From Catalinimonas niigatensis (lineage in GTDB: Bacteria > Bacteroidota > Bacteroidia > Cytophagales > Cyclobacteriaceae), in assembly GCF_030506285.1 (NCBI RefSeq), contig NZ_CP119422.1, positions 1,860,001-1,924,000 of the forward strand: 64,000 nt of DNA. The letters are read 5' to 3'. Positions 17,497 through 28,813 of this stretch are shown piece after piece (the first letter of the stretch is position 1; every line of letters begins with the position of its first letter). Under the pieces are notes generated by a model. That model did not search any database. It had not been told where the DNA came from and saw nothing but the letters and a program-made list of their open reading frames with translations. The position numbers and the translations under genes are program-made.

Positions 17497-18138
17497 TCAG
17501 GATTCAAGTTCCAATCCCAACGCTTCCAGGGTATGGAGGTCATCCTGCAATACGATCTGGGCTACATTATGGAATTTATACATCCATTGTTGCAGTTCAT
17601 TAAAGGCTTTATCGCGACGAATGATAGCTTCCTGAGTTGTTTTCCTCATTTTGAGATGCGCATGCCTGGCATCATGTAAAGCTTCTATCATCACTCTAAG
17701 CTGCATCAACTCTGCCTCTTCTACGCCTTGCTCTGCCATATATTTTGTGATATAGGCAACATTCTTATAAAAAATCATCGCCTGATCCAGCCAACCGGAA
17801 ACAACAGATGTTTTAGATTCATTGAATCTTAAAGCTTTGGCTAATTCTGGATTTTTTTTGAGTGCTGCTCTCGCAATTTTTTTATGTCTGAGATACTCCT
17901 TATAAGCAAGCTTACGATCTATATCCAGCGCCTGAGAGAAGTTTTTTTGCTTTTCAAATTCTTTTTCCTGCTGCTTGTGTAGATTTAACACTTTTTCAAG
18001 CAGAGTCTTTCCGTAGGTAAATTGTTTATGATCAAACTTAGAAGTTTCTAACTTTTTCAGGACTTCAGGCTTGTTCAATGCATTCTCTATGATTGTCTTG
18101 GCACTCTGCAACTGGTCCTCAATTTTGTAAACTAGCAT
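17497..18138 (-). CDS. Alpha-helical protein of unknown function, paralogous in pattern to 26954-27580
   Basis: A 213-residue, highly charged, all-helical protein with no signal or membrane segment. Its C-terminus (FNELQQWMYKFHNVAQIVL, then LHTLEALGLELES) has the same W-M-x-x-F-x-x-VA-x-x-x-L...LEAL pattern as the end of the protein at 26954-27580. Both also have a central W-L-x-QA-x-x-FY motif (GWLDQAMIFY here, DWLEQAERFY there). They are similar in length, so they belong to one family, which I cannot name. Function unknown; a four-helix-bundle or coiled-coil structural role is plausible. Confidence 0.75.
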   Translation of the reverse strand: MLVYKIEDQLQSAKTIIENALNKPEVLKKLETSKFDHKQFTYGKTLLEKVLNLHKQQEKEFEKQKNFSQALDIDRKLAYKEYLRHKKIARAALKKNPELAKALRFNESKTSVVSGWLDQAMIFYKNVAYITKYMAEQGVEEAELMQLRVMIEALHDARHAHLKMRKTTQEAIIRRDKAFNELQQWMYKFHNVAQIVLQDDLHTLEALGLELES

Positions 18139-26322: not shown

Positions 26323-26518
26323 TTTTCATTTTAGTGCACAACATGATCTCGGAAGTCCGAGATTAAGTAAGGTAGTAAAACTATTACATAAGCTTTACAT
26401 GAATGTTTTACATATTAATAAGTCAAAAAAATCTCAAGCCAACCGATGTTGGATGTGAATGGAAGCATTTTTGCCACTTCCCTTACTAATTAGCTCTTTT
26501 TATATACTTGCTTTCTTT

Positions 26519-26809
26519 ATGCTTCAAGGCAATTATTTCGTTTACATCACCACCAATCCGGGGAAGACCGTATTGTACACCGGCATTACCAATGATCTTG
26601 AAACAAGATTACAACAGCACTTTGCAAACAGAGGTAAAAAAGAAAGTTTTGCAGGAAGATATTATTGCTATAAGCTTTTGTATTATGAGCGTTTTTCAAA
26701 TGTACAACAAGCCATAGAACGGGAAAAGGAAATTAAAGACCTCAGTAGGGAAAAAAAGGAGGCTTTAATCAAAGCTTTTAACCCACAGTGGAAATTTTTG
26801 CTTCCTTAA
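26519..26809 (+). CDS. GIY-YIG nuclease domain protein
   Basis: About 96 residues from the ATG at 26519 (116 if read from 26459). The GIY-YIG core is visible as YFVYITTNPGKTVLYTGITN, followed by the conserved Arg in LETRLQQH, the tyrosine-rich YYCYKLLYYERF and the catalytic-region Glu in AIEREKEIKDL. It ends AFNPQWKFLLP. This is the short stand-alone type (COG2827-like), abundant in Bacteroidota and of unclear biological role; nuclease activity is inferred from the fold. It lies between two direct copies of a palindromic repeat, so it may be a mobile or repeat-associated cassette. Confidence 0.85.
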   Translation: MLQGNYFVYITTNPGKTVLYTGITNDLETRLQQHFANRGKKESFAGRYYCYKLLYYERFSNVQQAIEREKEIKDLSREKKEALIKAFNPQWKFLLP

Positions 26810-26953: not shown

Positions 26954-27580
26954 TCAAGCAACCACTTTGTTGAGGGCTTCCAGTTGCTGAGGAGATTCGC
27001 TCAGGGCTACTTCTGCCACCCTCATAAACTGGCGCATCCAGATTTTCAGGGCTTCTACCTGCTCATTGCGTTGCTTGGTAAGTTCCTGCTCCCTGCTTTT
27101 GGCACTGGACTGGGCAGCCATTAAATCCATCACCTGAACCAATAACTGGCTGGCCTGCTCCAGTTCCTGTGGCAGTACATTGTATTTTTCCATCATCGGC
27201 TGGGGTACCGTGGCATAAAAACGCTCCGCCTGCTCCAGCCAGTCCATCGTAGCCCCTTTGCGACGCGCACAGATATTAAGGTCATCATGATAGTCTGCCT
27301 CTCTTTTGAAAGCTAGACGAGCCGTTTCCAGATGAATGTTAAACAGGGACAGCAAAGTATCCTTGGCCAGCTGCAAATTGCGGGTAGCAGAACGAGATAC
27401 ATTGGAAGCCTCATTGCGCAGCAGTATGATCTGTTTGATCTGCTGTAGCCGATCCATCGCCTCCCTGATTTTCTTCTCATTGTAGCCGAATTTAGCCAAG
27501 AGCGTCAGCATGGAGGGCGTGGTAAGCGCATTATGAAGAGCGATATAGCTGTCCTTCATAAATAAATTGAGCTTTTTCAT
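26954..27580 (-). CDS. Alpha-helical protein of unknown function, same family as 17497-18138
   Basis: A 208-residue all-helical protein without signal or membrane segments. The central DWLEQAERFY and the C-terminal ALKIWMRQFMRVAEVAL plus LEALNKVV correspond to motifs of the protein at 17497-18138, although overall identity looks low. I cannot name the family. Its composition is somewhat more GC-rich than its flanks. The upstream region holds the 41-bp repeat array, so that array lies in its 5' region. Confidence 0.75.
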   Translation of the reverse strand: MKKLNLFMKDSYIALHNALTTPSMLTLLAKFGYNEKKIREAMDRLQQIKQIILLRNEASNVSRSATRNLQLAKDTLLSLFNIHLETARLAFKREADYHDDLNICARRKGATMDWLEQAERFYATVPQPMMEKYNVLPQELEQASQLLVQVMDLMAAQSSAKSREQELTKQRNEQVEALKIWMRQFMRVAEVALSESPQQLEALNKVVA

Positions 27581-27819
27581 GTTTTAGAATTTGTTGTACT
27601 TAAAATAAAGCATTAACAAATTTATTTATATAGTTATATATAAAATAGTAATATTTACATAAATATTTTGAGTTGTAATGAATTGCCGATGGGTATCCTG
27701 GCTTTGATAGGTTTTTAGCAAGTAAAATTTCAAATACAATAGACCAGCAATGTTTTGTGGAGGCTTGCTCCATTTACATCGGAATGAAAAGACAGGTAAT
27801 AAAAAACCTGACGCGTCAC
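27581..27819. other. AT-rich intergenic region next to the repeat array
   Basis: About 240 bases, very AT-rich near 27600-27670, with no gene visible. It presumably contains the promoter of the minus-strand helical protein gene. A minus-strand frame runs through here and the array, but its composition is not protein-like. Confidence 0.4.
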
Positions 27820-28024
27820 CAAAGCAGTGCATACATGCTTCGGCAGCTTTGTCGCACGACAAATGCAGTGCTTTTGTGCCTGGGCGAGCTTGCCGGGTCA
27901 TAAAAGCAGTGCAATAGAGGTTCGGAAAGCCTGCCGGAAGGCAAAAGCACTGCTTTAGCGACCGGACTGACTTTCCGAAGCGCAAAAGCAGTGCATACGT
28001 CATCCGGCACTTCCGCCCAAAGGC
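27820..28024. repeat. Five-unit array with exact 41-bp period, two palindromes per unit
   Basis: Units begin at 27820, 27861, 27902, 27943 and 27984. Each opens with a 15-base core close to AAAAGCASTGCTTTT (S = G or C at the centre of symmetry): CAAAGCAGTGCATAC, AAATGCAGTGCTTTT, AAAAGCAGTGCAATA, AAAAGCACTGCTTTA and AAAAGCAGTGCATAC. The remaining 26 bases vary but average to a second palindrome, CTTCGGCAAGCTTGCCGAAG. The unit length is not a multiple of three, so this is not a coding repeat. The units are GC-rich in an AT-rich setting. No cas gene or recombinase is near. Function unknown. Confidence 0.8.
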
Positions 28025-28252
28025 TATGGAGATGGTTTGGTGATTGGTCTGACTTTGGGGGTGGTTATTAAACTACCTTGAGGTTAGGGTAACTCTACTG
28101 CTAGCTTAATAAGATGCATTGATGATGAAGAAAAATGCTTGTTAAGCAGAGTAGGAATTAATATTTCAAAGCAGTAGCAAAGGTAAAAGATAGAAGTCCA
28201 TCCGCGTTGAAAGATTAGTATTTTTATATTGAATCCTAAATAAGATTAAATT
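28025..28252. other. Intergenic region between the array and the lipoprotein gene
   Basis: About 230 bases with no coding signal that I can support. The promoter of the lipoprotein gene should lie here. No exact TAnnTTTG box was found, although TAGTATTTTTATATTG is present at about 28206-28221. Confidence 0.35.
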
Positions 28253-28813
28253 ATGAGGTTAAACATATTATTGATTATATTGATCGGTGTTTCTTGTAAG
28301 CCCAAAGCTGTAGATGAAGAGCTTATTATCAGTATTTTAGAAAATTATATTGAGGAGGATTCCCTTTACAGTTCAGATTATATATATCCTGAATTACTTC
28401 CTTATATTTATTATCAGCCTGAATATTCCGATGATGGACTTGAACATCCGACTCCACCACCTTCATATGAAGGCGAATATTTGAACGAAATAAAATTTAT
28501 TGAAAGATTAGAGTGTGAGAAGTATTTTTCCTATGAAGACTCCAGCCATATTAAACATCAGATATTTTTATCCAGTAAAATCTTTTCAACTCTAAATTTA
28601 TCTTCTTTATCCAAAAGAGAATTTGAATTTTCACCCGATGAGGCAGCTTCATGGTATGCCTTCTACCTTCCAGTTTTTAATAATGATAGCTCTGCTGTCT
28701 ATGTTCAATATGATTACCAATATGAAGGTGTAGGATACGGTAATGGAGCCATTTTAGTGAAAAAAAATGGTCATTGGATTATGGTGAAATTTATTTCTCG
28801 CTGGATGACTTGA
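28253..28813 (+). CDS. Hypothetical lipoprotein (186 aa)
   Basis: The N-terminus MRLNILLIILIGVSCKPK is a lipoprotein signal with lipobox GVSC at Cys15. The following lysine may favour inner-membrane retention or surface export, which cannot be decided from sequence. The mature part is acidic and tyrosine-rich (LYSSDYIYPELLPYIYY). It ends in a beta-strand pattern, GYGNGAILVKKNGHWIMVKF, resembling the last strands of small beta-rich periplasmic domains. I do not recognise a family. The gene stands alone in the accessory stretch. Confidence 0.7.
   Translation: MRLNILLIILIGVSCKPKAVDEELIISILENYIEEDSLYSSDYIYPELLPYIYYQPEYSDDGLEHPTPPPSYEGEYLNEIKFIERLECEKYFSYEDSSHIKHQIFLSSKIFSTLNLSSLSKREFEFSPDEAASWYAFYLPVFNNDSSAVYVQYDYQYEGVGYGNGAILVKKNGHWIMVKFISRWMT

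Follow-up and report, generated by a model that had tools for sequence, protein, structure and literature searches.

The window, which is the whole stretch of 64,000 nucleotides from Catalinimonas niigatensis that was analysed, contains a tandem array of palindromic 41-bp units. The array is flanked by two divergent genes, as its preliminary description had stated, namely a gene of 208 aa on the minus strand and a 186-aa open reading frame that starts at 28253 on the plus strand. The features considered in this work are as follows.

17497-18138, minus strand: second PQLLE-family gene of the window, with no detectable array upstream (best lag 38, identity 0.42)
26954..27580, minus strand: gene of the PQLLE family (NF052641) whose 208-aa product is internally duplicated and predicted to be all-helical; about 240 bp separate its ATG from the start of the array
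27581..27795, unstranded: AT-rich stretch from the array to the gene (G+C 0.30), presumed promoter or leader of the PQLLE gene
27796..27819, unstranded: gene-proximal flank that recurs beside the other copy of the array in the genome; the two copies can be aligned over 27796-28031
27820..28024, unstranded: array of five units of 41 bp, each with dyad symmetry; the core resembles AAAAGCASTGCTTTT and the other dyad CTTCGGCAAGCTTGCCGAAG, with about 20.5 bp between dyad centres
28025..28065 (about), unstranded: probable decayed sixth unit, recognised by eye, resembling the unit at 27943

The units begin at 27820, 27861, 27902, 27943, and 27984, and each is exactly 41 bp long. At lag 41, the identity of the array is 0.567 compared with a window mean of 0.258 (sd 0.038), and all its other lags from 20 to 61 reach at most 0.32, which confirms the exact five-unit periodicity first described. 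Tandem Repeats Finder did not detect the array in the window because the units have diverged. The AT-rich gap in which the array had been placed is present between array and gene, whereas the array itself is not AT-rich (G+C 0.54 over the 164 bases measured). A single terminator-like site lies on the minus strand at 27810-27793, which is at chance level in that scan. Searching 27500-28300 against Rfam gave three matches, all far below the gathering score, and no known Rfam RNA was recognised in this segment; we also agree with the earlier view that CRISPR does not fit. A GIY-YIG domain protein of 116 aa is encoded near the PQLLE gene at 26459-26809 on the plus strand.

The whole unit is dyad-symmetric, with a circular palindromy of 0.583 compared with 0.370 in column shuffles (p 0.001), and its two dyad centres lie half a period apart. 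Across ten units of two arrays, conservation of the columns is strongly unequal (p 2e-4), and the core GCASTGC is nearly invariant. The palindromic unit and the conserved core of the preliminary description therefore stand. Its further claim, that the remainders drift while keeping their dyads, finds no sign of compensatory change within the units, where covariance had been proposed as a check: palindromy within a unit (0.546) does not exceed that between units (0.578, ten units). As a result, the claim that dyads are kept rests on the comparison of arrays and loci of different sequence.

The product of the neighboring gene belongs to the NCBIfam family NF052641 ("PQLLE family"), scoring 146.7 bits (E 7.4e-43) against a curated cut-off of 80 bits, and five relatives score 181-217 bits. 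The window gene has 36 matches in its own genome (G000) and 15 and 11 in two congeners (G001 and G002), and none was found in three genomes from two other genera of its family. The PQLLE family has undergone a large expansion in this genus lineage and is sporadic elsewhere in the phylum. The predicted structure of the protein (mean pLDDT 92.9) is all-helical with two 56-residue helices, and the two halves of the protein are homologous in profile comparison (probability 98.2, E 3.6e-14). Moreover, 26 of 28 PQLLE members have a pI > 9 and are thus basic proteins. No recognised DNA-binding domain was found, as PaaX (E 0.01) and GntR (E 0.055) both fell below cut-off, which counts against the reading that we prefer below. 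Fold searches returned generic long-helix matches only, which are uninformative, and no recognised fold. ParB, Rep, and ToxN/AbiQ-type families were absent among the Pfam matches of the 28 members, and PADLOC assigned no toxin family to the six members submitted. Likewise, the window protein had no match in plasmid records, and one PQLLE protein had none in phages.

The link between the array and its neighboring PQLLE gene, which is absent from the preliminary description, is the main point of this analysis. Arrays with a period of 41-43 bp were present upstream of 19 of 31 PQLLE genes or gene pieces and of 9 of 386 control genes (Fisher p 2e-18), where an array required that the best of lags 20-79 be 41-43 with an identity of at least 0.455. 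The 31 comprised 24 from G000, six from G001, and one from G002. Among them are the two pieces of a split G001 gene, a short fragment, and a gene whose available upstream measured only 300 bp and which showed an array when retested; duplicates in L189 and a gene with <300 bp upstream were excluded. Four of the nine passing control rows are accounted for by three of the solo arrays presented below. A second set of 20 loci was chosen from the gene matches, and an array was present upstream in 12 of them and downstream in none. It consisted of the 11 G000 genes that remained, two more from G000 with an upstream that had previously been truncated, and 7 of the 11 matches in G002. The ortholog in G002 already belonged to the first set, and a weak match and two fragments were excluded there; the array 2 kb from one of the 20 (L240) had already been seen beforehand. 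Counting against the reading preferred below, 12 of the 31 and 8 of the 20 have no array at this threshold, including the second PQLLE gene of the window. In our own tally, an array accompanies 25 of the 36 G000 matches. In G001, the homologue closest to the window gene (L155:1614-2271) is spread over two overlapping frames and is probably a broken gene; its upstream has a best lag of 41 (identity 0.44, which is under the threshold) and shows significant dyads, whose sequence is quite different from that of the window array.

The period was further characterised by scanning lags 20 to 120 in 20 own-genome stretches of 17-20 kb around paralogues and in 20 congener stretches, 19 of them evenly spaced and one at the homologue of the window gene. 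Lags 41, 42, and 43 were found in 6, 21, and 13 scanning windows of the own genome, compared with one each at lags 40 and 44, and in 1, 8, and 0 windows of the congener, compared with none at either neighboring lag. After merging, 19 of 40 peaks fall in the 800 bp that precede a PQLLE gene, whereas control lag triples gave 2-4 peaks with 0-1 upstream of PQLLE genes. Seventeen of the 21 other peaks were viewed: four look like real solo or displaced arrays, and the rest fall in coding or AT-rich DNA. Overall, the array period in the genus is restricted to 41-43 bp, with about 4-6 units per array (by eye) that diverge from one another by about a third to a half.

Dyads are a common property of the genus arrays, being significant in 17 of 19 when the whole unit is tested and in 14 of 19 with the local test (Fisher-combined p against column shuffles 4e-21 and 5e-17, respectively), in 11 of the 12 arrays of the second set, and in all five solo or displaced arrays tested (p <= 0.004). 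Different arrays, with dyads such as CATTTGA..GG.CAAATG, TGCTCC....GGAGCA, ATAGATCAGTACTGATCT, and TCCCTGGCAGGGA, have little sequence in common, and the best cross-identity between arrays of different loci has a median of 0.37. Array similarity does not correlate with protein identity (170 pairs, rho 0.02). Co-variation would perhaps be expected of cognate pairs, and the missing correlation counts against binding of each protein to its own array; a tendency toward co-variation is seen in the closest pairs only, the three protein pairs that are >58% identical having array identities of 0.53, 0.42, and 0.45. The motif ATGTAAG occurs at 6 of the 31 loci (7 sites compared with 2.1 in shuffles). 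A promoter motif TAnnTTTG was set aside as too infrequent, with 2, 1, and 4 sites upstream of, within, and after the arrays.

Outside the genus, family matches were found in 15 of 395 genomes of the phylum (own genome included), six of them above the family cut-off, and in 9 of 79 genomes (five above cut-off) of a second sample from one other family, whose genomes partly overlap the phylum set. Among the matching loci with at least 250 bp upstream, several of which score below the family cut-off, the best upstream lag (lags 15-89) is 21, 41, or 42 in 19 of 21, compared with 2 of 22 downstream, both weak. This count excludes L214, L215, L217, L218, L225-L227, L232, L233, and L239 (no match to the genus profile at 0.01), L212 and L234 (<250 bp upstream), and L206, L219, and L228 (own genome); of the 19, L229 is AT-rich and weak, and L205 and L235 carry nearly the same array. 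The distant arrays are mostly direct repeats, the whole-unit test detecting dyads in 3 of 16 (combined p 0.009) and the local test in 0 of 16. As 21 and 42 are multiples of three, some of them could be coding, which counts against the preferred reading: four have no frame >62 codons at their middle, and others contain long open frames of up to 472 codons. For the genus arrays a coding repeat was rejected, since 41 and 43 are not multiples of three, in line with the noncoding period noted at the outset. B-DNA has 10.5 bp per turn, such that 21 bp correspond to two turns and 42 bp to four, and it is spacing, rather than sequence, that unites the genus arrays with the distant ones.

The search for the core and the 41-bp consensus in this genome and its relatives, as originally suggested, yielded one further copy in the own genome (7.13 Mb, one contig) and none by blastn in 38 other genomes. 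A 90-column model applied to 98 genomes of the family (own included) gave, beyond the own copies, 11 weak matches in 10 other genomes (E 0.013-0.065), which is about chance at the limit of 0.1, and the window array was not found in plasmids and phages. The pattern GCANTGC repeated three times at 41 bp occurs in 98 stretches of genome contigs and in no viral contig; the 80 stretches viewed were taken for unrelated tandem repeats, and a PQLLE-like open reading frame was found in none of the 98 stretches as fetched, which also counts against the preferred reading. Arrays with an exact 41-bp period and a palindromic GCANTGC core occur at several sites within single genomes, for example in one Kiritimatiellae MAG (L051, L076, L078, L083, L089, L095, L102, and L119), in Hoylesella marshii (L062, L087, L097, and L098), and in Tannerella MAGs (L058, L064, L081, and L092).

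The second copy of the window array is 72% identical over about 235 bp (C1:2857045-2857280) and sits between an M24 peptidase gene and a Sua5 gene, without a PQLLE gene. This gap measures 450 bp here and about 40 and 105 bp in two congeners, where the two genes are still adjacent (81-82% identity) and no array is visible, which indicates that the second array was gained here or lost in the congeners. Neither the pattern nor a sequence model found a third copy in the own genome, giving a total of two; three single pattern matches with two mismatches each were taken as chance. Further dyad-symmetric arrays of 42-43 bp with other sequences are located at L169:7068-7235, L172:989-1160, L199:1790-1957, and L170:19470-19640. 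No PQLLE remnant was found near the M24-Sua5 array or, within the surrounding 2.6-3.2 kb, near three of these four. The L170 array lies about 2 kb upstream of a PQLLE gene, and the L169 array resembles, by eye, the array upstream of a PQLLE gene in a congener (L202).

We observe the linkage of array and gene, the upstream position, the spacing, the dyads in the genus, the private array sequences, and the duplication within the protein, to which modeling adds a predicted helical fold. The best explanation, to which we give about an even chance, is that the array is the cis-acting DNA part of a module with the PQLLE gene and offers phased sites to the cognate protein. The PQLLE protein would bind its own array as DNA, with one two-fold or pseudo-two-fold protein per dyad. 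Because the repeats come every two or four turns, the sites would lie on one face of the DNA, where proteins could assemble side by side into a nucleoprotein complex. Located upstream of the PQLLE gene, such a complex would most likely regulate the promoter of that gene, and the array is most likely an autoregulatory or nucleoprotein-assembly site. The copy between M24 and Sua5 may serve as a second address of the window's PQLLE protein. In addition, a 42-bp palindromic unit could represent two opposed 21-bp half-units, which would unite the palindromes of the genus with the direct 21-bp arrays of distant genomes. Of the possibilities raised in the preliminary description, phased binding sites about four helical turns apart are thus favored, since periods of 41-43 bp in the genus and of 21 or 42 bp at most other loci recur upstream of one gene family.

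The tandem structured RNA that was originally considered as an alternative is less favored. According to this explanation, which we regard as unlikely, the array would be transcribed ahead of the gene and its tandem hairpins would bind the PQLLE protein in the style of type III toxin-antitoxin systems. The order of repeats followed by gene is the same in those systems, and the unit length is similar (34-36 nt in ToxIN; PMC5086642). Folding of the array exceeds that of shuffles (z -4.6 and -4.7 on the two strands; -4.6 to -5.4 overall), yet both strands fold equally, as in any palindrome, and the fold scores therefore do not decide between DNA and RNA. Terminator-like sites between array and gene number 5 compared with 1.7 (sd 1.5) in shuffles, the window being one of the 4 of 19 loci that have one, but such a site is missing at the other 15. 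If RNA hairpins were selected, G-U should exceed A-C among the dyad mismatches of the sense strand; the observed ratio of 38:28 equals the expectation from composition (47:35 with another choice of stems; the power is low), and this absence of strand bias fits dyads that act at the level of DNA. The divergence of units within one array and the lack of a toxin-family match in Pfam or PADLOC also speak against RNA, while the direct repeats without dyads in most of the distant arrays and the narrow period range of the genus favor DNA over RNA.

It is also improbable, in our judgment, that the phased sites of the array serve some other DNA-binding protein, such as a host regulator or nucleoid protein, that controls the PQLLE genes while the PQLLE proteins themselves do not bind. 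A common period in arrays that do not co-vary with protein identity would agree with this proposal; however, a single common regulator would not read the private array sequences, and the period recurs with PQLLE genes in other Bacteroidota. We consider it more improbable still that the array is a satellite-like or mobile repeat (REP- or MITE-like) that tends to sit near PQLLE genes without a function for them. The REP-like satellite first proposed fits the solo second copy in the longer M24-Sua5 gap, and further solo arrays of other sequence are in keeping with mobility, but it is otherwise a poor fit: the arrays have little sequence in common, the window sequence occurs only twice in the genome, and the upstream position and period are constant with the dyads kept. 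A chance array is ruled out by the lag identity, by the linkage to PQLLE genes relative to controls, and by the dyad tests.

The preferred reading of a protein-bound DNA module may extend, more tentatively, to an undescribed addressing system of Bacteroidota chromosomes. Dozens of paralogous duplicated-helix PQLLE proteins per genome could each read a private array, free in sequence and with a spacing locked to whole pairs of turns, and would form separate nucleoprotein assemblies at their own genes and at solo copies. The analysis gives a family known only by name a cis element and a function that can be tested. Should every paralogue read its own array only, a single genome would hold dozens of orthogonal protein-DNA address pairs, a natural set for studying how the recognition of DNA by long helices evolves, and possibly a tool kit. 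The combination of strict spacing and free sequence points to selection on helical phase itself. Among open-licence papers, none was found with a word beginning with "PQLLE"; in this narrow search we recognised no description of such an array-gene module, and a description elsewhere is possible.

Comparing the array with known repeat systems, REPs have one sequence common to many copies. The PQLLE arrays resemble REPs (PMC3733652) as short palindromic extragenic repeats, but they share period and symmetry and have private sequences, and the window array, with two copies in 7.13 Mb, does not qualify as a REP. Type III toxin-antitoxin systems (ToxIN, CptIN, and TenpIN) likewise place tandem repeats upstream of a gene, with a length of 34-36 nt in the ToxIN family (PMC5086642). 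Those antitoxin repeats function as RNA and are followed by a rho-independent terminator, the counterpart of which is a terminator-like site at only 4 of 19 PQLLE loci. The PQLLE loci further differ in their diverged palindromic units and their predicted all-helical protein, in which no toxin domain was found.

Plasmid iterons are direct repeats of about 21-22 bp, or two helical turns, beside the gene of their binding protein, and the operator of rep can consist of an iteron half-site in inverted form. Direct repeats of about 21 bp also precede PQLLE genes in other Bacteroidota, whereas the units of the genus are palindromic. In contrast to iterons, PQLLE arrays are chromosomal and occur in many copies, the window protein lacks a match in plasmid records, and sequence comparison placed no Rep family among the Pfam matches of the 28 members. 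A similar unit design is seen in F-plasmid sopC (parS-F), which consists of twelve repeats of 43 bp; every repeat contains a 16-bp inverted repeat to which a ParB dimer binds, and sopC adjoins the gene of its binding protein, SopB (PMC9178275), as the array described here adjoins the gene of its putative binding protein. Tandem units that each contain an inverted repeat, as in sopC, are present in 17 of 19 and 11 of 12 genus arrays. However, the 12 units of sopC lie downstream of sopAB, whereas the PQLLE arrays have about 4-6 units upstream of a single gene and number in the dozens per chromosome, every array having a sequence of its own, and ParB/SopB is not among the families matched by the 28 members at the sequence level. 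Overall, the array resembles sopC and iterons in form and is a member of neither.
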